From positions 1-22,233 of IMG/VR virus record IMGVR_UViG_3300037673_000048: 22,233 bases of DNA, one strand, 5' to 3'. A program made the position numbers and the translations under genes. The notes beneath the pieces were generated by a model. The model ran no database searches. It worked only from the letters and a program-made list of their open reading frames with translations, and had not been told where the DNA came from. Origin of the DNA: a virus. How positions within the stretch are numbered: position 1 is the first letter of the stretch; each line of letters starts with the position of its first letter. Below are positions 1-16,521 of the stretch, one piece after another.

Positions 1-2
1 CC

Positions 3-215
3 AAACCCCGTGAATGGCCTAACAATGCGCGGTGGGCCCGTGACGAAGCTGCCATGCTTGCTTTTCGAGGCGCGGGCCTGTTGCGCAAGCTGTTGGAAAA
101 CTACTTTGACATTTCAGATGCGGTCAGGATTGCCCTGATTGCACAAGCACAAGATTGTCTCCATCGGATAGACGAACTGATGACACAGGTGGGGGCAGAA
201 AGGAGAGGGGTATGA
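3..215 (+). CDS. Partial hypothetical protein, 5' end missing
   Basis: An open frame enters from the left edge and ends with TGA at 213-215, giving the last 70 residues of a protein. It is charged and helical (for example WARDEAAMLAFRGAGLLRKL), with no motif I recognise. Its stop overlaps the ATG of the next gene (ATGA at 212-215), which is typical of translational coupling within a phage operon. The absence of internal stops and the coupled junction are the reasons to call it a gene. Function is unknown. Confidence 0.6.
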   Translation, partial: KPREWPNNARWARDEAAMLAFRGAGLLRKLLENYFDISDAVRIALIAQAQDCLHRIDELMTQVGAERRGV

Positions 216-352
216 TGAAGGACATTGCGCGAATTTTTTCCATGAAGGAACTAGTTCAACTTAGCGTCCTGATGAAGCGTGGCCTGGGGCAGGAGCAAGC
301 GGCGCTTGCGATCATCCGAGCGCGCTTTGCCAGGATGGACAAGAGAAGCTAG
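212..352 (+). CDS. Small hypothetical protein (46 aa)
   Basis: This short gene starts at ATG 212, which overlaps the stop of the preceding frame, and has AAGGAG about six bases upstream. An in-frame GTG/ATG further upstream would put the start inside the preceding gene, so 212 is preferred. The product is basic and helical (MKELVQLSVLMKRGLGQEQA), perhaps a short helix-turn-helix-like peptide, but no family is recognised. It belongs to the run of tiny early genes at the start of the window. Confidence 0.55.
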   Translation: MMKDIARIFSMKELVQLSVLMKRGLGQEQAALAIIRARFARMDKRS

Positions 353-415
353 AAAGGAGATATAAGCAGTTTCACGGTTTTTATTATTAGATGCGTACTA
401 GTTAGGAGGGTGTAA

Positions 416-658
416 ATGAAGGCCGAGCTTTTAAGAGGTAATGTGCTTGTCAGCTTCTATGACGCGCCAGAGCTAATGGGCAAGCATCCCTGGTTCGCGG
501 GGTTTCGGCCCGATGACAGCGTGGGGAGCTTTGCATTGGGCGAGTGCCCATTTTGCGGGGAGCCCAGCCCGTTGGCGTTCATTGGCAACTACGATGGGTG
601 GAAGCGGATGGGCGTCATGGTATGCCGCCGATGCTGGCGTATCTTCGATGCGTACTAA
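416..658 (+). CDS. Small zinc-ribbon protein (80 aa)
   Basis: An AGGAGGG site lies about seven bases before ATG 416. The protein has two Cys pairs, CPFC near residues 44-47 and CRRC near 70-73, a classic C-x2-C...C-x2-C zinc-ribbon arrangement. It is rich in aromatic residues. Such small zinc-binding proteins are common in the early regions of phages and may bind nucleic acid or partner proteins. The zinc-binding fold is inferred from the cysteine spacing; the specific role is unknown. Confidence 0.7.
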   Translation: MKAELLRGNVLVSFYDAPELMGKHPWFAGFRPDDSVGSFALGECPFCGEPSPLAFIGNYDGWKRMGVMVCRRCWRIFDAY

Positions 659-682
659 GCAGGTGAGAGAAAGGAGTGAAAC

Positions 683-784
683 ATGTATCCTGATGCCTGC
701 TATTGTATTGTGGGAAGCCCAATGGCTGTGAAAAGAAAGGAGGAAGAACGATGCAAAAAGTACACATTGACGAGTATTTGGTGA
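683..784 (+). CDS. Possible micro-protein (33 aa)
   Basis: ATG 683 is preceded by AAAGGAG at a good distance and opens a 33-residue frame ending at TGA 782-784. The frame overlaps the start of the next gene (ATG 751). It has two early cysteines and a Lys/Glu-rich tail, with no recognisable domain. The good ribosome site is the only support, and the 3' half lies in a shadow frame of the next gene, so it may not be real. Confidence 0.3.
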   Translation: MYPDACYCIVGSPMAVKRKEEERCKKYTLTSIW

Positions 785-1030
785 GCCAGGGGCTATGTCC
801 TACCGATAGGTAGTTGCGCCTGGGTTCGCGTCGAGGAAATTTTAGCTCTTCGCCAGGGCAAGGAAGATTGGACAATCACCTACCGTGTCAAAGATGGCAA
901 AGTGACTCAGGCAATCAGGCCCGACCTAGCTCTAGAAATACTTGACCAAGATCTGATGGGCCGAGTGCTTGGCTCAGCGTTTTTCATTATCAACCCTACT
1001 CGGGTTGAGGAAATGGTCTACGTGACCTGA
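751..1030 (+). pseudogene. Small protein gene broken by a +1 frameshift
   Basis: ATG 751 follows a strong AAAGGAGG site. The frame reads MQKVHIDEYLVSQG and then stops at TAG 811. From about 785 a second frame, +1 relative to the first, is open to TGA 1028-1030 without a usable early start. It encodes coherent sequence such as GSCAWVRVEEILALRQGK and RVLGSAFFIINPTRVEEM. Skipping one G in the GGGG run at 789-792 joins the two into a 92-residue protein. The likeliest explanation is a one-base insertion (natural or sequencing); programmed +1 frameshifting is possible but less likely. The family is unknown. Confidence 0.55.
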
Positions 1031-1039
1031 GGGGCGCTG

Positions 1040-1150
1040 ATGTTCTTCGTGTGTTGGAGCATTGCCCAAATGGTCAAGCACGCCGACAGAGTGCTCTTAG
1101 TGATCCATGCCCAAGGGAAACAAGACCGCACTCTGTGCGGCATTCGGTAG
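1040..1150 (+). CDS. Possible small protein (36 aa)
   Basis: ATG 1040 lies ten bases after the preceding stop, with GAGGGGC just upstream. The 36-residue product begins MFFVCWSIAQMVKHADRVLL and ends at TAG 1148-1150. It is too short for family assignment. Position, spacing and a moderate ribosome site are the only evidence. It precedes a strong hairpin. Confidence 0.4.
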   Translation: MFFVCWSIAQMVKHADRVLLVIHAQGKQDRTLCGIR

Positions 1151-1158
1151 TATAACCT

Positions 1159-1182
1159 GTAAGCGTTGTTTGCAGCGCTTAC
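1159..1182 (+). other. RNA hairpin in front of a ribosome site
   Basis: GTAAGCGTTG (1159-1168) pairs with CAGCGCTTAC (1173-1182), giving ten base pairs (one G-U) around a four-base loop. No U-run follows, so this does not look like an intrinsic terminator. It ends 13 bases before the AAAGGAGG of the next gene and could be an RNA processing or stability element. Confidence 0.5.
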
Positions 1183-1204
1183 GATCTGAGAAAGGAGGAA
1201 AATA

Positions 1205-1471
1205 ATGGACAGAGACACTATAGATGCCTTCGGCAGTATGGACGAGCGCGTGGCGGCGCTGGAAGACGCGATGGAAGCGCTGGTGAAAGCCACGACATGT
1301 TTGCTCGACGCTATGCCTCTAATGTGCAGGTTTGACTTGGCTGATGCTGCTGATGCGCTCGAGTTGGATATTAAAAGCCTGGGCCTGGCTCCATATGCTT
1401 ATTGTCCACATGGGGAGCGAACCTTGCTGTGCAACAAGTGCAGAACCGTTGTGCCAGGCCAAACGGAGTAG
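1205..1471 (+). CDS. Hypothetical protein with Cys/His cluster (88 aa)
   Basis: ATG 1205 follows GAAAGGAGG. The first half is acidic and amphipathic (DERVAALEDAMEALVKATT), likely a coiled coil. The C-terminal part has CPHGERTLLCNKC, a C-x-H...C-x2-C arrangement that may bind zinc. A predicted helix followed by a small metal-binding tail is all that can be seen. It lies just upstream of the first copy of the pseudoknot repeat. No family is recognised. Confidence 0.65.
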   Translation: MDRDTIDAFGSMDERVAALEDAMEALVKATTCLLDAMPLMCRFDLADAADALELDIKSLGLAPYAYCPHGERTLLCNKCRTVVPGQTE

Positions 1472-1478
1472 CACAATG

Positions 1479-1636
1479 GCCTGCTCCGTTCGTGACGCTG
1501 GAGGCTCGGCGGGAATGATGCAGGAGTAGCGCTTTGGCTCAGGCGCGGGGAGAATAGCACGGCCTCGGCATATCCCGCGCTGAAATGCGGTGCCGTGCTC
1601 GCTCGATTGCCAAATAGACGGCGGGGCGGGCGGTGG
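1479..1636 (+). repeat. Pseudoknot leader element, copy 1
   Basis: This is the first of two imperfect direct repeats (the other is 2731-2886), about four in five positions identical by eye. GCGCGGG (1543-1549) pairs with CCCGCGC (1574-1580), and AGCACGGC (1556-1563) pairs with GCCGTGCT (1592-1599). The stems interleave as a-b-a'-b', giving an H-type pseudoknot with loops of 6, 10 and 11 bases. The second arm ends 66 bases before ATG 1666, so the element sits in that gene's leader. It matches no RNA family I can name. Confidence 0.7.
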
Positions 1637-1665
1637 AAAAGGAAGGCTGAAATAAGGCAGCGAGG

Positions 1666-1890
1666 ATGGTTATTCGGAACCTAGAGGATAGGCTTGTTTA
1701 TCAACTCCACACCTGGATTTATAGCTGGAAGCTTCAGGGTTACCGATGCGCCTGCGGTCACGTTGTCGAGCTCGTTAGTTCTAAAAATCTTCTTTACCGC
1801 TGTAGGTGCGGAGTCGAGATAATAGTAGAGCCCTGGGACAGCGTAGCTGATAGCGGTGGCGATCATGCGCCATCGGTTTATGATGCATGA
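1666..1890 (+). CDS. Small zinc-ribbon protein (74 aa)
   Basis: The frame runs from ATG 1666 to TGA 1888-1890. Two C-x-C pairs, CACGH near residues 28-32 and CRCG near 46-49, are spaced like a compact zinc ribbon. The rest is aromatic- and Val-rich. The gene lies between the first pseudoknot repeat and the annealing-protein gene, with an AAAGGAGG just after its stop for the next gene. A regulatory or single-strand-binding role is possible but not shown. Confidence 0.6.
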   Translation: MVIRNLEDRLVYQLHTWIYSWKLQGYRCACGHVVELVSSKNLLYRCRCGVEIIVEPWDSVADSGGDHAPSVYDA

Positions 1891-1903
1891 AAGGAGGCAA
1901 GCT

Positions 1904-2722
1904 ATGCACGAAAACCTGAACGAATTGGTTTACTGTGGCGATTTGCGAGGTGAAGATGCTAGGAAAGGAGGAACTGACATGCATATCAAGGAATTGCTTA
2001 AAGAGCTAGGCAAGCCGTTTCCACCAGAAGCCTTTGAGGTTGATGATAGCCGAGGCTTTGAGCTGGTGGGGATTAAGGGCGCTTATGTCATTGAAAGGCT
2101 CAATGAGGTCTTTGGGCCATGTGGCTCGGGCTGGGCGTACACTGTCAAACGAGCCGAGCTGATGGACGACTGGATGATGGTAGACATTGAGCTTCGATAT
2201 TGCATTAACGGCGAATGGAGTGAGCCTATCTTGGCTTTTGGCGACTGCCGCGTTGTGCGAGGGCGCTTGGGCGATGCTCGCAAAGGGGCATTGTCGGATG
2301 CGCTGAAAAAAGCGGCCTCCCTGTTAGGGGTCGGAAATGAGGCGTATAAGGGCCTGTTGCGAACCCAGGAGCAGAGGCAGGGACAAGACAACGTGGCTGC
2401 TAGGGTGGTTGCTATGAAGGCCAGGATGCGCGGGCCTGAGTCTGCGCGGGACGAAGAAGTGGCACAAGATTCGCCAAAAGCGCTGACTGGCATTTCATCG
2501 TCTGAGAGAGCACACCCCTGGCATCTATGTACCGACCTCATAAATAGGGCCAGGCGGGAAATCCCATATTACGAGGACAACGTTCCTCACATCCTCAATA
2601 CGTTACGCAAGCTAGAAGCGGAGGGCGTCATTATCTGGGACTCCACGAGCGTGGACGAGGTATTCGAGGCCCTGAACGAATACGCGCATAAGCGGGCCAA
2701 CGAGAAGGCAAGCAAGGATTAA
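1904..2722 (+). CDS. Rad52-like single-strand annealing protein
   Basis: Phage single-strand annealing proteins of the Rad52/Sak type anneal complementary single strands during recombination-dependent replication. Counting from ATG 1979, residues 50-70 hold the GWAYTVKR-type strand and residues 99-119 the signature DARKGALSDALKKAASLLG. Together these are typical of the Rad52/22 family. The C-terminal third (about residue 170 onward) is variable and charged. There are two in-frame starts, each with its own strong site: ATG 1904 (AAAGGAGG, 272 aa) and ATG 1979 (AAAGGAGG, 247 aa). The Rad52 homology begins after the second, so 1979 is probably the main start. The gene is flanked by the two pseudoknot repeats and precedes the initiator gene. 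Confidence 0.85.
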   Translation: MHENLNELVYCGDLRGEDARKGGTDMHIKELLKELGKPFPPEAFEVDDSRGFELVGIKGAYVIERLNEVFGPCGSGWAYTVKRAELMDDWMMVDIELRYCINGEWSEPILAFGDCRVVRGRLGDARKGALSDALKKAASLLGVGNEAYKGLLRTQEQRQGQDNVAARVVAMKARMRGPESARDEEVAQDSPKALTGISSSERAHPWHLCTDLINRARREIPYYEDNVPHILNTLRKLEAEGVIIWDSTSVDEVFEALNEYAHKRANEKASKD

Positions 2723-2730
2723 CAAGGCTT

Positions 2731-2886
2731 GCCTGCCCTGTTCGTGACGCCCGAGGCTCGGCGGATGATGCAGGAGGGGTATCCTGGCTTAGGCGCGGGG
2801 AGAATAGCGCGGTCTTGATATATCCCGCGCTGAAGTGCGATGCTGCGCTCGCTCCATTGCCAGGTAGACGGCTGGGCGGGCAGGCC
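2731..2886 (+). repeat. Pseudoknot leader element, copy 2
   Basis: This copy aligns with 1479-1636 at an offset of 1252, then 1250 after a 2-base indel. GCGCGGG (2793-2799) pairs with CCCGCGC (2824-2830), and AGCGCGGT (2806-2813) pairs with GCTGCGCT (2842-2849). An A-T pair in copy 1 is G-C here, and two other pairs change to G-U, so pairing is kept while sequence drifts. An extra outer stem, GCCTGCCC (2731-2738) with GGGCAGGC (2877-2884), is perfect in this copy only. The pseudoknot ends 64 bases before ATG 2914. Confidence 0.7.
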
Positions 2887-2913
2887 AATAAATGGAAGTT
2901 GAAGGAGAAAAAA

Positions 2914-3792
2914 ATGGAACAATTCCAGGTGCGTGATGCTCGTACTGAGCATCGCTACTTTGTGGATAACGCGATTATCCGCGTTTATGGGGACAAGTTA
3001 GGGCCGTATGGGATAGCGGCATACAACGCCCTTTGTGTACACGCCGACAAGGACACACAACAATGTTGGCCGTCTTATCAAACGCTGGCTGACTTGGTTG
3101 GGATGAGCAAGCGACAGATGATGCGCGAGATAGCCAAGTTGGTAGAGATGGGACTAGTGCACAAGGAGTCTGGCAAAGATGGCGCCCCCAATACTTACAC
3201 CCTACTTGACCCACCATGCTTGTCACCATGGGGTGACAGGGAGTCACTAGGGGGTGACAGGGAGTCACTAGGGGTAGTGACAGGGAGTCACCCTAACAAT
3301 CCTAATAAGAACAATCCTAAAGAACAATCCTCAAGGAACAATCCTAAAGAACAAAAAAATTCAGAAAATTTTCCAAAAAATTCTGCTGATAGCGAGCTTG
3401 ATGATCCGCTCTTGGCTTTTCTCCGCCGTGAAGAGCCGCAATCAGACAGAGAGCGCATCTTGTATGCGCTTTCAGAGGCGTTGCAAATGCCCTTACCGTC
3501 GGACGAATATCTCTATCGCGTTTGGGAACGTGGCCTTGACAGCCTCATCCGCAATTGCCGCGACCTGGCTGGGAAGCGGCAGCTTGATGCGGAGTTTGCC
3601 AAAGAGATTATCGCGGCTATTCAGCAAGCTCAGGGCCACTGGTCGTTTAAGAAAGCTCATACGCCGACAGCGGTGGTTGTGGCCGCAATTACGGACGCTT
3701 TTCGCGCATCGCGGAGGAAGGCCCCTAAGACTACTGAGGAGCGGCGAGCAAAATATGCTGGCGGGAAATATGCAGGGCAAATACTTACCTGA
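2914..3792 (+). CDS. Replication initiator with N-terminal helix-turn-helix (lambda O-like role)
   Basis: ATG 2914 has GAAGGAG upstream and gives 292 residues. Residues about 20-95 form a winged helix-turn-helix of the type found at the N-terminus of phage replication proteins (SYQTLADLVGMSKRQMMREI, then a wing ending NTYTLL). Residues about 105-160 are low-complexity Asn/Lys/Pro/Glu sequence encoded by the iteron and A/T-rich region. A helical C-terminal domain follows (about 165-290). In lambda, gene O has the same plan: DNA-binding N-terminus, origin inside the gene, and a C-terminus that recruits the helicase machinery. I infer the same role here. No helicase gene is visible in the window. 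The last residues overlap nothing, and the next gene follows after 22 bases. Confidence 0.75.
   Translation: MEQFQVRDARTEHRYFVDNAIIRVYGDKLGPYGIAAYNALCVHADKDTQQCWPSYQTLADLVGMSKRQMMREIAKLVEMGLVHKESGKDGAPNTYTLLDPPCLSPWGDRESLGGDRESLGVVTGSHPNNPNKNNPKEQSSRNNPKEQKNSENFPKNSADSELDDPLLAFLRREEPQSDRERILYALSEALQMPLPSDEYLYRVWERGLDSLIRNCRDLAGKRQLDAEFAKEIIAAIQQAQGHWSFKKAHTPTAVVVAAITDAFRASRRKAPKTTEERRAKYAGGKYAGQILT
3233..3291 (+). repeat. Three palindromic iterons (putative origin)
   Basis: GTGACAGGGAGTCAC occurs exactly three times, at 3233-3247, 3254-3268 and 3277-3291. Start-to-start spacings are 21 and 23 bases, about two helical turns. Each copy is a GTGAC/GTCAC inverted repeat with a five-base centre. 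A related half-site, GTCACCATGGGGTGAC, precedes the first copy. They lie inside the initiator gene, as lambda iterons lie inside gene O. Confidence 0.75.
3292..3390 (+). repeat. A/T-rich unwinding region with AACAATCCT repeats
   Basis: Directly after the iterons, AACAATCCT is repeated at 3295, 3310, 3323 and 3337. A run of A/T follows (AAAAAAATTC, AAAATTTTCC and similar) to about 3390. The contrast with the G/C-rich flanks fits a DNA unwinding element of an iteron-type origin. Confidence 0.65.
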
Positions 3793-3814
3793 CCGCCTAA
3801 TGGAGGAAGACCAA

Positions 3815-4039
3815 ATGACCGTTTGGGACGCAATGGCGTGGCTATTGAGCGCGACTAGCGCGCTTATGCTCTGGCTAATGGGCAACAAGAGCAAGTGGGG
3901 GCCACGCTTAGGGATTTTCAATCAAGTGCTCTGGTTGGCGTATGCCATCGGTCTTAGGCAGTGGGGATTGTTGCCTGGTATAGTGCTCTACACATTTGTT
4001 CACATGCGAAACCTCTACAAGTGGAGGGGTAGGCAATGA
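3815..4039 (+). CDS. Small membrane protein, two predicted helices (74 aa)
   Basis: ATG 3815 follows GGAGGAAG. The protein has a hydrophobic segment at about residues 8-22 (WLLSATSALMLWLM) and a second region at about 33-60 (FNQVLWLAYAIGLRQWGLLPGIVLYTF), with basic residues between and after. It should be an integral inner-membrane protein with one or two spans in its second half. Its tail recalls fragments of PnuC-like transporters, but it is far too short to be a full transporter. Its stop overlaps the next ATG (ATGA at 4036-4039). Confidence 0.6.
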   Translation: MTVWDAMAWLLSATSALMLWLMGNKSKWGPRLGIFNQVLWLAYAIGLRQWGLLPGIVLYTFVHMRNLYKWRGRQ

Positions 4040-4263
4040 AGTGGGAACAATTGGCATTAGCCGTTGATAATGACGGCGGCCTTAGCGTGGGTGACCTAGT
4101 GTGTCACAAAGCGAACTCCGAACTGGTGGGGCGTATCGTCGAGATTAACGGCCAGCAGGCTAGATTGGAATTGCTGACTTGGCCGACGGCATGGTACAGA
4201 GTGTGGTTTGCCAAGCGGCCCATGCCTGCCAGGGTGGAGAACTTAATACTAGCGGAGGCTTAA
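4036..4263 (+). CDS. Hypothetical protein (75 aa)
   Basis: The start overlaps the upstream stop (ATGA), suggesting coupled translation. The sequence (LSVGDLVCHKANSELVGRIVE and after) reads as a small beta barrel, an SH3-like or KOW-like fold with alternating hydrophobic strands. This is only an impression. No family is assigned. The 70 bases after it hold nothing but the strong AAAAGGAGG of the clamp gene. Confidence 0.6.
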   Translation: MKWEQLALAVDNDGGLSVGDLVCHKANSELVGRIVEINGQQARLELLTWPTAWYRVWFAKRPMPARVENLILAEA

Positions 4264-4332
4264 CATGAAATATGGGACTTAGTGGCGATTGACGCTGCGG
4301 ATGTCGCTCATAGACGAAAAGGAGGAAGACAA

Positions 4333-5484
4333 ATGAAGGTCGTTTGTGAACAAGAGAAGTTGCTTACAAGCCTGAAAGCAGTGGGGCAAGCGGTTGGCAG
4401 GCATGGTGTGTTGTCTATCCTGGATCATGTCTTGCTGACTGCTGGCGAAGGGCAATTGCGGGTTTCGGCAACTGACCTGGAGATTGCCGTTGTTTGCCAG
4501 GTGGAGGCCCAAGTGGAGCGCGAGGGCGCTGTGGCGGTGCCCTGGCGGGGCTTATATGATTTGGTGAAGACCTTGGCCCCTGGCCGAATGATGCTCGAAA
4601 GGCACAAGGACAAGAAGGGCAAGGTTGAGGTTACGTGGGAGGGTGGCAGGGCTGGCTTCTATTGCAAGGATGTCGAGGAGTTTCCCTCTCTGCCCACTCT
4701 TGACGATTTTGAGCACCAGATTGGCCTGGAGGCCAATGCGCTCAAGCGGGCAATCCAGCGCGTTGTGCTTGCGGCTGCTCCAGACGACCTTGACAGGCCC
4801 ATTTTGACAGGCGTCTTGTTCGAGGTCGAGGCTGAAGGCCGCCAGTTGACCTTAGTTGCTGCTGATGGGGTTCGGCTTTCGGCTGATACCCTTGAGCTTT
4901 CCGATGAAGCTGGCTTTACAAAGGCTATCGTGCCAGCGCGTGCATTGGCAAGCCTGGCGCGCTTGGTGGATGATGGGGCCGAGACAGTCACTTTCGGCTG
5001 TTCTGACCACCAGGCGATTTTTGTGATGCCTGGCGCAACCGTGATGGCCCAGCTTATTGATGGGCTGTTTCCTGATTGGCACGCAATCGTTCCTGATCCT
5101 CTACCAGAAGAAGTGACGCAGGTGACTGTGAAACGGGAGGCCATGCTACAGGCGTGCTACGCGGCCCGTGTCATTGCGCGCGAGGCTTTCAACAAGGTTG
5201 AGTTGCGTATAGAGCCGCCAGACGAACTGGTTGTGAAAGCCAGTGACATTGTATTTGGCGAGGAGGCAATCAGCGTCGAGGCTCGCGTCGAGGGAGCAAG
5301 GCTTGGCATTGCCTTCGACGTGAAGTATCTCTTGGACGTACTGCGGGCAGTCGAAGAGGAGTGGGTAAGATTTGAGTTTACGTGGCCGACCTCTCCTGGG
5401 GCGCTATATCTGCCCGAAACCCCAGGCTTTGTCCATTTGATTATGCCCATGCACATGTCAGGAGAAGCCACAGTTGGGCCATGA
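4333..5484 (+). CDS. dnaN: DNA polymerase III beta sliding clamp
   Basis: The 383-residue product has the length and three-domain repeat of bacterial DnaN. The clamp encircles duplex DNA and tethers polymerase and other proteins. Recognisable stretches are MKVVCEQEKLLTSLKAVGQA at the start, LSILDHVLLTAGEGQLRVSA in domain 1, RPILTGVLFEVEAEGRQL and LVAADGVRLSADTL in domain 2, and FDVKYLLDVL then PGFVHLIMPM at the C-terminus. The start at ATG 4333 is fixed by AAAAGGAGG. A phage-encoded clamp beside an initiator suggests the phage builds part of its own replisome on host polymerase. The stop overlaps the next ATG. The amino acid signature is clear. Confidence 0.93.
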   Translation: MKVVCEQEKLLTSLKAVGQAVGRHGVLSILDHVLLTAGEGQLRVSATDLEIAVVCQVEAQVEREGAVAVPWRGLYDLVKTLAPGRMMLERHKDKKGKVEVTWEGGRAGFYCKDVEEFPSLPTLDDFEHQIGLEANALKRAIQRVVLAAAPDDLDRPILTGVLFEVEAEGRQLTLVAADGVRLSADTLELSDEAGFTKAIVPARALASLARLVDDGAETVTFGCSDHQAIFVMPGATVMAQLIDGLFPDWHAIVPDPLPEEVTQVTVKREAMLQACYAARVIAREAFNKVELRIEPPDELVVKASDIVFGEEAISVEARVEGARLGIAFDVKYLLDVLRAVEEEWVRFEFTWPTSPGALYLPETPGFVHLIMPMHMSGEATVGP

Positions 5485-6404
5485 TTGACTACAAAAGGCG
5501 GGTTCGCTTGATGCGGCAGTATCAGGCGATGGAGCTAGATGCCAAAATTCGATACGCCAATCGGCTTATAGAGGCTGGGCTGGAGCTGGCCGATATGCCG
5601 TGTGTGGCCTGGAGCGGGGGCAAGGACAGCACGGTTATGCTGCACCTGGTGCGCCAGTTTGACCCTGACATTGTTGTGCTTTTCAACGACACCAAGGTGG
5701 AATTCCCCGAAACGCTCAAGTTTGTGCGGCGCGTGAGCAAGGAGTGGGGACTAAACCTGCACGTTGCAAAGCCGGAGCGGGGCAAAGACTTCTGGTGGTG
5801 TGTGGAGCAATACGGGTGGCCGCTGTTTGGCAAGGCGGCTGCTCGCCGAACCACAAACTTGCCTGAGCGTTATGCCAAGGTGCGAAGTAGCGGGGTGCGC
5901 ATCACGGCCCAGTGTTGCTATTGGCTCAAAGAGAAGCCGTCTTTGCGTGTTTACCGCGCACTTGGGATTGACGTGCTCTTTCTCGGCCTCATGGCAAGCG
6001 AAAGCCGACTGCGTTTATTTCAGTGGTGTCGCACTGGCGATCTGTACTGGAATAAGGAAAAGGGACTGTGGCATGTATTGCCCCTGGCCGTGTGGACGGA
6101 TGAGGACATTTGGGAGTACCACCGCCGTCACGATTTGCCCTTGTGCGAGCTTTACGCGATGGGCCACAGGCGCAACGGCTGTTGGCCTTGTGGCATGGGC
6201 ATAGGGTTTCCAGACAATCATTTGGCCTTGCTGCGCAGGACGCACCCTAAATTGTGGAGGTTTCTTATGATTGACAAGGGCTTAGCTAGGGAATTGCTCA
6301 AGGTCAAGTTAGCCCTGGACGACGGCCAGATGAACCTTTTTGCCGCTACCTGGGACATTGAGGCGCTATTGCGGCAGCGGCCTTGTTTCTTCGATAGGCT
6401 CTAG
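5481..6404 (+). CDS. PP-loop ATPase, PAPS reductase/DndC-like family
   Basis: ATG 5481 overlaps the dnaN stop (ATGA). The 307-residue protein has the PP-loop SGGKDS at residues 45-50, in the context CVAWSGGKDSTVMLHL. This loop binds ATP and adenylates a substrate in the PAPS reductase, ATP sulfurylase and DndC families. Further features are FNDTKVEFPETL, a CC pair in ITAQCCYWLKEKP, an exposed Cys pair in NGCWPCGMG, and a W-T-DEDIW motif typical of this family. In phages these proteins are usually annotated simply as PAPS reductase; a role in sulfur transfer or nucleic-acid modification fits better than sulfate assimilation. The radical SAM gene follows immediately. Confidence 0.85.
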   Translation: MIDYKRRVRLMRQYQAMELDAKIRYANRLIEAGLELADMPCVAWSGGKDSTVMLHLVRQFDPDIVVLFNDTKVEFPETLKFVRRVSKEWGLNLHVAKPERGKDFWWCVEQYGWPLFGKAAARRTTNLPERYAKVRSSGVRITAQCCYWLKEKPSLRVYRALGIDVLFLGLMASESRLRLFQWCRTGDLYWNKEKGLWHVLPLAVWTDEDIWEYHRRHDLPLCELYAMGHRRNGCWPCGMGIGFPDNHLALLRRTHPKLWRFLMIDKGLARELLKVKLALDDGQMNLFAATWDIEALLRQRPCFFDRL

Positions 6405-6408
6405 GAAG

Positions 6409-7233
6409 GTGGCGAAGATAGTACGTGTGTTCCCGCGTAGAACTAGCTACACTCCCACTGACGCGCTGGCCTTTGTTGGTGATCCGCCGCTGTTCCGTCC
6501 CGAGGCAGACGAAGTGCATATCTCTGTCTGCTTTACATGGGACATTGAAGAGGGATACCGCCTGTATGAGGCGTGGTCATTGTACTACGACAATGTGAAG
6601 ATCGGCGGGCCAGCCTTTGGTACTCCCTGTGACCAATTTGTGCCTGACATGTATGTCAAGTCGGGGGTGACGTTCACCACCAGGGGATGCAACAAGCGTT
6701 GTCCTTGGTGCCTGGTGCCTGAGCGCGAGGGACGGCTGCGGGAAATAGACGATTTTCCGCCTGGGCATATTGTGCAGGATAACAACCTGCTTCAGGCCAG
6801 TCGTGCTCATTTGCGCAAGGTGTTTGCCATGCTGAGATCGCAGGGGCGGGCGGCGGTGTTTGCTGGCGGCCTGGACGCAACGTTGCTAGACGATTGGGTG
6901 GTCGAGGAATTGCGCTCTTTGCGTATTGGGGAAGTATTTTTGGCGGCGGACACCCCAGAGGCTCTGCGGCCTCTCAAGAAGGCCGTAAGCAAGCTCAACT
7001 TTCTGAGCCGCCGACAGCTACGCTGCTATGTTCTGTTGGCGTTTGGAGGCGAGACAATCGCTGATGCTGAGGCAAGACTGAGGGAGGTTTGGGAAATCGG
7101 TTGTCTTCCCTTTGCCCAGTTGTATCAGCCGCCTGACAAGTGCATTGAGTATTCGCGAGAGTGGAAAGCATTGGCCCGCGCCTGGTCGCGGCCAGCAGCG
7201 ATGTTTGCTATGATGGGGAAGAAGCGCAAATGA
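6409..7233 (+). CDS. Radical SAM protein
   Basis: The likely start is GTG 6409, four bases after the preceding stop (MAKIVRVFPRR); in-frame alternatives upstream lie inside the previous gene. The radical SAM cluster motif C-x3-C-x2-C is at residues 94, 98 and 101 (RGCNKRCPWC). It binds the 4Fe-4S cluster that cleaves S-adenosylmethionine. Further on, VFAGGLDATLLDDW and CYVLLAFGGET fit the alternating strands of the partial TIM barrel. The length is 274 aa. Tight coupling to the PP-loop gene suggests the two act in one pathway, perhaps DNA or RNA base modification, but the substrate cannot be read from sequence. Confidence 0.85.
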   Translation: MAKIVRVFPRRTSYTPTDALAFVGDPPLFRPEADEVHISVCFTWDIEEGYRLYEAWSLYYDNVKIGGPAFGTPCDQFVPDMYVKSGVTFTTRGCNKRCPWCLVPEREGRLREIDDFPPGHIVQDNNLLQASRAHLRKVFAMLRSQGRAAVFAGGLDATLLDDWVVEELRSLRIGEVFLAADTPEALRPLKKAVSKLNFLSRRQLRCYVLLAFGGETIADAEARLREVWEIGCLPFAQLYQPPDKCIEYSREWKALARAWSRPAAMFAMMGKKRK

Positions 7234-9703: not shown

Positions 9704-9887
9704 TTTTGATCATGCGCGCTGGGCGGTGATTCGCAGTAGCCGTCCTGAAGCGGTTTGCTCCCCTCCGCAAGCGCCAGGGATAGTTTATGGCCCTGGGGAG
9801 GCGTCGAGGCCAGGCGCCTGGGGAGCCTCCAGGGACTTATGGAAAAAATAAAAAATTTTTGAAATTTTTCCCAAGGGAGCAAGGGCG
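9704..9887 (+). repeat. Kissing-loop leader element, copy 1
   Basis: This element aligns with 10375-10545. Predicted helices are GGGCGGT (9721-9727) with GCCGTCC (9739-9745), and GCGG (9750-9753) with CCGC (9765-9768) around an 11-base loop. Then come CCAGGG/CCCTGG around 9773-9796, and CCTGG (9817-9821) with CCAGG (9829-9833). GCTCCCC in the second hairpin loop (9757-9763) is complementary to GGGGAGC (9820-9826) in the last hairpin, a possible kissing or pseudoknot contact. An A/T inverted repeat (9841-9871) follows, just before the ribosome site of the 9888 frame. Confidence 0.7.
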
Positions 9888-10374: not shown

Positions 10375-10545
10375 TTTTGATGTTGCGCGTTGGGTGGTGA
10401 TTCGCGGTAACTGCCCTGAACGGGATTGCTCCCCTCCTGGAGCGCGGAGGATGTTGATCCTGGCGAGGCGTGAAGGCCAAGCGCCTGGGGAGCCGCCAGG
10501 GGGCATTATAAAAAAATTTTTTTACAAGGCACAAGGAGGGAGTGC
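10375..10545 (+). repeat. Kissing-loop leader element, copy 2
   Basis: The helices of copy 1 are preserved with changed bases. GGGTGGT (10392-10398) pairs with ACTGCCC (10410-10416), and CGGG (10421-10424) with CCTG (10436-10439) around an 11-base loop. AGGAT/ATCCT lies at 10448-10461, and CCTGG/CCAGG at 10484-10500. The loop GCTCCCC (10428-10434) and its partner GGGGAGC (10487-10493) are unchanged. In the second helix the first pair is swapped from G-C to C-G, a true compensatory change. A perfect A7T7 palindrome (10510-10523) precedes the ribosome site. Confidence 0.7.
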
Positions 10546-15309: not shown

Positions 15310-16521
15310 GTGAAGAAAAGAAAAAGCAAACTGGGAATACAGGCTCTAAATCCTGTTAATAGTGCACTTGAATTTCAGCGGCAGTACAAGGCACGGGTTT
15401 TCAAGGTCGTGATTGTGAACGACCACGACTTTGTAAATTGGTGGCTTGATTTCCCCGACGACACGCTGGTCATCGGGCGCTTTTACGGCACTGGCAATAT
15501 TGACAGGCTGGAATGGACGCCTGAAAACGGCATTTGGCTGGCCGATAGGCTCAAGCAGGTAGCTGGCTTCAACAAGCGTATTGATGTGTGGGAATGCGTT
15601 AACGAGCCAATCGTTGGGTCTGTCGCGGATATGCAGCGGCTGGCCGAGTTTGAACGGGTCTGGGCCGATAGGATGCATGAGCACGGCCTTAAGACCATCG
15701 TAGGCAATTTCTCGGTGGGAAACCCAGCCGATATTTCACTCATGAAACACTTTCGCCCTGCTATGGAAGCAGGCGATTACTTCGCCTACCATGCATACGG
15801 ACGACCACCTCATGTACTGTCGGACGCTGAGTGGTGGGCACTTCGTTACCGTAAGTTGCTTGAGGCCGCCGAGTACGAGATGCCAGTGTTGCTTACCGAA
15901 GGCGGGATAGACGCCGGGGGCTGTCCCGAATGTGGCTATCAGAGCTATATGGGCGCCCTGGAGTACATAGAGCAGCTTAAGTAACTTGACGCTGAGCTTC
16001 AGAAGGATGAATACGTCGAAGGAATTACCATCTTTCACGGTGGCAGTTACGGCAACTGGGCTTCGTTCGGCCTAACGGACAATGCTCTCCGCTTATTGGG
16101 CGAGTATATCGAAGGGCAGGGCTGGTTGGACGTAGAAGAGAACGGAGAGGATGGGCCGCCCGAGCCTGAGTCCGAGCCTGAGCCTGAGTTGCCCGTGAAG
16201 GAGATTGAGGCAGCTATCCTGGCCCAGTTCTCAAAGCATTGGCCGCACGATATGCTCCGCTGGCTCAAGGCAGAAATTACCATGCACCTGCCCAAGCCGT
16301 TACACGACCTGCTAGGCAGCGAAGGTAAGTTTGGCTATATGCCCGATTTCGCGTTGCCAAAGGGGGCGAGGCAATACCGGGTGGGCCTACCGCCGCTCAC
16401 TGACGAACACGAGTTAAGGATAGCGGGGTACCGCATTGTGTATCAGTTTTATCCCTCTGGCGCAGTGTGGTGCGTGTATGGCGCGTGGGATAAACAGTAT
16501 GTGATTGATTACGGGCCTTGA
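15310..16521 (+). pseudogene. GH-A-type lysin interrupted by an in-frame TAA
   Basis: GTG 15310 follows GGAGGGGAGG. Residues 1-224 read as a TIM-barrel glycoside hydrolase of clan GH-A: VWECVNEP has the Asn-Glu-Pro acid/base at 98-100, and LLTEGG has the nucleophile Glu 197. TAA at 15982-15984 then stops the frame, but the same frame stays open to TGA 16521. It continues with barrel strand 8 (VEGITIFHGGSYGNWASFGL), a Pro/Glu linker (PPEPESEPEPELPV) and a C-terminal domain of about 110 residues. The whole reads as one cell-wall hydrolase of about 403 residues. The truncated form lacks part of the barrel. TAA is used as a normal stop elsewhere here, so this is a nonsense mutation, sequencing error or readthrough, not a recoded genome. 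Confidence 0.75.

Follow-up and report, generated by a model that had tools for sequence, protein, structure and literature searches.

What element is repeated between the genes near one end of this viral DNA, and what might it do there? The window analysed here is the whole of an IMG/VR virus record (IMGVR_UViG_3300037673_000048; 22,233 bases, position 1 being its first letter), and the elements, helices and neighbouring genes described below lie on its + strand. An earlier note, made from the sequence alone, had reported two copies of an H-type pseudoknot ahead of a zinc-ribbon gene and a replication initiator gene, and had proposed a new regulatory RNA or cis element. Both copies and all the stems that it quoted are present; the loop lengths (6, 10 and 11) are the same in the two, and the change from A-T to G-C and the two changes to G-U are real.

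The two copies, E1 (1479–1631, 153 nt) and E2 (2731–2881, 151 nt), score 179.5 and 191 bits, respectively, with our covariance model R1 and align with 82% identity. E1 is preceded by an 88-aa ORF (1205–1471), whose stop codon ends 7 nt 5' of the closing stem P1, and is followed by a purine-rich leader of 34 nt (1632–1665), which runs to the start codon of an ORF (1666–1890) encoding a small cysteine-rich, zinc-ribbon-like protein without a Pfam or PHROG match. Next come a gene for a Rad52-like protein (1979–2722; Pfam Rad52_Rad22, 2.9e-7), the stop codon of which ends 8 nt 5' of P1 of E2, then E2 itself and a leader (2882–2913) that contains AAGGAG, predicted to be unpaired with a probability of 0.95, and runs to the start codon of the replication initiator gene (2914–3792; HTH_36; PHROG replication initiation, 1.1e-16). 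The gene order is E1, small cysteine-rich ORF, Rad52-like gene, E2, initiator gene. Two further features of this region were observed. A short hairpin (GTAAGCG...CGCTTAC, 1159–1182) stands directly 5' of the strong ribosome-binding site that serves the ORF beginning at 1205. The initiator gene contains (3222–3354) a 21-bp repeat, GTCACTAGGGGGTGACAGGGA, in 3.2 copies and, after it, an A/T-rich array with a repeat unit of ~13 bp, in a layout like that of the lambda origin inside gene O.

A third long copy, E3, was found at positions 22615–22766 of another virus contig (IMGVR_UViG_3300005099_000009, 61 kb; hereafter G001) by a pattern scan of IMG/VR with the conserved pseudoknot loops, and was the sole further true copy from that scan. 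E3 has 91% identity with E2 and 85% with E1. Outside the element, matches between the two viruses are confined to a few proteins and two short stretches of DNA, and the viruses are largely unrelated. As a separate observation, a locus of G001 (L018, 7532–7911) has a translation resembling QueC of the 7-deazaguanine pathway.

The architecture was resolved once E3 was added to E1 and E2. Each copy is a domain of ~152 nt with P1, a stem of 12 positions, closing its exact ends, and with a three-way junction inside from which two arms, P3 and P2, extend; the junction strands are an unpaired UUCGUGAC after P1 and UAGRC returning to P1. P1 pairs 1479–1490 with 1620–1631 in E1, where a G-C pair is replaced by C-G in E3 (a two-sided change), and 2731–2742 with 2870–2881 in E2, where it can be extended to 2726/2886. 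Arm P3 (1497–1530 in E1, paired at 1497–1500/1527–1530; 2749–2780 in E2, paired at 2749–2752/2777–2780) has a nearly invariant loop and is written GCTG/TAGC, GCCC/GGGT and GCCC/GGGC in the three copies, with two two-sided changes among them. Arm P2 (1533–1614 in E1, paired at 1533–1538/1609–1614; 2783–2864 in E2, paired at 2783–2788/2859–2864) also shows two two-sided changes (TTTGGC/GCCAAA, CCTGGC/GCCAGG and CTTGGC/GCCAGG) and encloses the pseudoknot, which spans 1543–1599 in E1 (stem a, 1543–1549/1574–1580; stem b, 1556–1563/1592–1599) and 2793–2849 in E2 (stem a, 2793–2799/2824–2830; stem b, 2806–2813/2842–2849), each stem having one two-sided change among the three copies. The H-type pseudoknot of the earlier description is therefore present, but it accounts for 57 nt of the ~152-nt domain, and P1, P2 and P3 had been missed; since it is one arm of a P1-closed domain, and since a short form described below lacks it, the description as a bare pseudoknot was incomplete.

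How far can this fold be trusted with so few sequences? A de novo helix search over the three long copies, which used no prior structure and was followed by greedy choice of compatible helices, yields P3, P2, P1 and the two pseudoknot stems, together with one weak 4-bp helix. The helices computed in this way carry seven two-sided (compensatory) changes in the three sequences, whereas shuffles of the columns with every variable site left in its place averaged 2.7 and never exceeded 6 in 400 trials. A chance origin of the pairing is unlikely. The third copy, E3, brings further compensatory changes, which fall in P1, in P2 and in the two stems of the pseudoknot. When the same helix search was run with minus-strand pairing rules, two two-sided changes were obtained against seven, which rules out the opposite strand and identifies the + strand, co-directional with the genes, as the functional one. 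Variable columns make up 12 of the 72 unpaired but 22 of the 82 paired positions, as expected of sequence-specific loops on compensated stems; the departures from pairing within stems comprise 18 G.U and one A.C, a count partly biased by how the helices were picked. The folding energy of the single sequences is not better than that of shuffled ones (z of -0.49 for E1 and -1.03 for E2), so that the support for the fold comes from covariation and conservation rather than from energy, and minimum-energy nested folds disagree with the model. Two other accounts of the conserved letters were rejected: an alternative hairpin between b and a' is, on inspection, disrupted in both E1 and E3, and a coding sequence is contradicted by the loss of every frame, since the frames are shifted in E1 by an indel of 2 nt and in E3 by an insertion of 1 nt, and the stops differ. 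For a comparison of so few sequences (three long copies plus a single short form, from two viruses), the fold is well supported.

The short form, of 73 nt, was detected in G001 (16406–16478) with R1 at E values of ~4e-4 to 9e-4. Its P1 is complete (CTCTGCCCCGTT with GGCGGGGCGGAG) and shows one more two-sided change, at position 2; the short form retains the junction strands, while both arms are swapped for a short sequence and there is no pseudoknot. The run of pairs adjoining the junction is 10 in the short form, as against at most 4 at the 35 other IMG/VR sites that contain the junction words, none of which (0/35) extends into P1; lacking P1 pairing, these 35 were set aside as chance hits. 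If the short form works, the pseudoknot is dispensable. Reading the sequence, a possible 47-codon ORF overlaps it, and it could be a relic.

Placement between genes follows a rule. The distance from the stop codon to the start of the element is 7, 8 and 7 nt for E1, E2 and E3, and that from its end to the start codon is 34, 32 and 31 nt (taking a putative GTG start for E3); the short form lies 24 and 25 nt from stop and start. The spacing of 64–66 nt before a start codon that had been given earlier holds when counted from b', but the structured unit ends 34 and 32 nt before it. Beyond P1 the flanks of the copies are unrelated, an apparent match downstream of E1 and E3 being no better than that between control leaders. 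The predicted probability that the Shine–Dalgarno (SD) sequence is unpaired is not uniform, ranging overall from 0.22 to 0.95 (E3, 0.60; E2 at the upper end), and the genes directly downstream differ between copies. Assignment of the element to leaders of initiator and zinc-ribbon genes stands for this window only, the second virus having other downstream genes. The elements of the second virus are nonetheless near a Rad52-like gene and a replication initiator gene: the Rad52-like gene is 5' of the short form (it was recognized by eye from its translation, not by a model), and E3 is ~400 nt 3' of the initiator gene. With Rad52-like and initiator genes near the elements in both viruses, the elements keep company with replication and recombination genes.

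The suggestion that this is a new structured RNA of no known family has held up, since no match to Rfam 15 was found at the gathering score across the window, and permissive E values gave chance-level hits elsewhere. The expectation of many hits in related phages failed, the element being found in one other virus contig only. No further copy was recovered by eight pattern scans of IMG/VR, by scanning ~85,000 species genomes, or in phage and plasmid collections; six hits in the species-genome scan, and one further locus (L020), are chance matches without P1 pairing. A covariance search with R1 of ~730 Chloroflexota genomes (sets of 400, 29 and 301, with some overlap) found no copy, and, since R1 recovers the G001 copies in the same tool, the search works. 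Chloroflexota were picked because the DnaN of the virus is up to 42% identical to sequences there, Chloroflexota alone having been compared, and as a host they are a weak guess. The family is either rare or too diverged to detect. The 18 loci reached through the gene at 3815–4039 (one of them G001) hold that gene in other contexts, with no element.

Some other contents of the window deserve mention. The gene at 3815–4039 encodes a 74-aa membrane-like protein of phrog_2421 (function unknown), relatives of which are present, among other neighbouring genes, on at least 17 IMG/VR contigs that otherwise differ; it is a widely exchanged phage gene. The phage's own DnaN sliding clamp is encoded beside PAPS-reductase-like and radical-SAM-like proteins (4333–7233). 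A second G+C-rich repeat pair (9704–9834 and 10375–10501, 78–88% identical) precedes two related ORFs (~9894 and 10546; M/V-AID/ERL...REELL), and so probably reflects tandem duplication of a leader with its gene.

What, then, might the element do? Our tentative preference, at less than even confidence, is for a new and rare RNA that acts in cis between cistrons of phage replication modules, probably as an operator to which a protein binds, like that of T4 gene 32. Computation has established the fold, its exact limit at P1, the strand, the placement and the lack of an Rfam match, whereas the post-transcriptional role is inferred. The element would be transcribed with the + strand genes as a cis-acting structured RNA of ~152 nt, and a putative nucleic-acid-binding protein of the phage or its host would probably recognize it as a post-transcriptional operator. 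Protein bound at the structured domain would govern access to the less structured, SD-bearing leader, as gp32 does on T4 gene 32 mRNA, and expression of replication genes would thereby be tied to the state of DNA replication. A search for a conserved expression platform or a known binding protein found neither. A terminator or attenuator was rejected as being at chance level; pairing of the ribosome-binding site and reading frame are likewise not conserved among the copies, so that an attenuator, a simple riboswitch or read-through is poorly supported. The element would be an undescribed addition, combining a pseudoknot with a three-way junction, to the small number of structured leader RNAs described from phages; if it is a shared operator, it would show how a phage coordinates its replication genes post-transcriptionally. 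It follows a clear positional rule, and its three long copies, together with the short form, offer a ready set of sequences for tests.

An unlikely alternative that we retain makes the element a mobile or selfish cassette, of MITE-like or RNA-based kind, that depends on its structured ends in order to move. It is kept because E2 resembles E3, from the other virus, more closely than it does E1 of its own, and because the boundaries are sharp; the exact limit computed for P1, the unrelated flanks, the occurrence in two mosaic viruses, and a short form that keeps these ends around different contents are all in keeping with it. Yet inspection revealed no target-site duplication at E1, E2, E3 or the short form, no adjoining transposase was recognized, and there are three or four copies only. 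Also against it, departures within the stems are almost all G.U-compatible (with the bias of helix choice noted above), and the interior covaries too. P1 itself resembles an inverted repeat, its departures being of this nearly all G.U-compatible kind.

Rather unlikely is a role resembling that of the put RNAs of phage HK022, in which the RNA would bind the RNA polymerase transcribing it and so let that enzyme run through pause sites and terminators of the early operon. Two related structured copies per phage, on the coding strand of an early region, recall putL and putR (PMC9378689), but the unit here is a ~152-nt domain with a pseudoknot placed between cistrons, departing from put RNAs in size and structure, and no promoter-like or terminator-like site rises above chance in positions 1–5500.

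We consider it improbable that the element functions as DNA, with the + strand folding while single-stranded in the course of replication to serve, say, as a primosome site or a single-strand initiation site. Proximity to the initiator gene, which bears the origin-like repeats, and to Rad52-like genes would suit such a site, and STAXI motifs near DNA-handling genes have posed the same question (PMC2864571). The strict stop-to-start placement suits RNA better than a DNA site, however, and the G.U-compatible changes are numerous.

Just as doubtful is that the fixed placement is itself the mechanism, the element being a self-contained intercistronic module and a portable translation-coupling device spread among phage replication operons. 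A ribosome stopping 7–8 nt before P1 would touch or open P1, or be held by the domain, and would re-initiate ~32 nt after it; the closed domain would bring the stop and the next start close, and the downstream gene would be translated under the control of, or by handover from, translation of the upstream one. The near-constant distances at three unrelated sites favour such coupling, but there are three sites only, one with a putative start, compact phage genomes have little intergenic space anyway, and the short form is spaced differently on both sides.

A metabolite-sensing riboswitch is very improbable: a fold that is compact and aptamer-like, contains a pseudoknot, has invariant loops and recurs in the leaders of different genes would be compatible with one, but no Rfam class matches, there is no terminator, the downstream genes have no common pathway, and anti-SD pairing is not conserved, the only CTCC lying near the 3' end of E2 and being absent from E1 and E3 in the alignment. 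Stop-codon read-through or frameshifting, in which a structure after the stop lets some ribosomes continue, is scarcely credible, for although viral read-through pseudoknots have a stop-to-structure spacing similar to the 7–8 nt here, the in-frame continuations, read from the sequence, show no conservation (the next stop comes after 7 codons in E1 and E3 and after 31 in E2) and no slippery sequence precedes the stops.

Finally, the protein-binding operator that we favour can be set beside known systems. The cyanophage manA and wcaG motifs, found mainly in metagenomes, are structured RNAs lying in probable 5' UTRs of phage genes, but they are tied to carbohydrate, exopolysaccharide or light-related genes (PMC2864571), and the present element has no match in Rfam. 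The put RNAs of HK022 are ~70 nt long, have two stem-loops, lie near early promoters and act on RNA polymerase; they have no pseudoknot and no closing stem (PMC9378689). The STAXI motif consists of a short pseudoknot in two or three tandem copies, frequently with UUCG tetraloops; like the present element it occurs near DNA-handling genes, and whether it is RNA or single-stranded DNA is uncertain (PMC2864571). Here, in contrast, there is one pseudoknot per element, within an arm of a larger domain, and the copies are 1.25 kb apart; both the put and the STAXI comparisons fail because the structure differs. The operator of T4 and RB69 gene 32 consists of a ~28-nt pseudoknot and an unstructured stretch of >40 nt with UUAAA repeats, before the gene for the ssDNA-binding protein (PMC535899). 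The element is not a member of that family: it is a ~152-nt unit with a P1-closed junction and several copies, its leaders have no UUAAA or UAAA repeats, and downstream are the initiator gene and the small cysteine-rich ORF in place of a single-stranded-DNA-binding-protein gene. What it shares with the gene 32 operator is a location in a phage replication and recombination region and an order in which a structured, pseudoknot-bearing part comes first and the ribosome-binding site lies in a less structured stretch after it (PMC535899), a layout clearest in E2, which ends 32 nt before the ATG with its SD predicted to be largely unpaired (0.95), and weaker in E3 (0.60).
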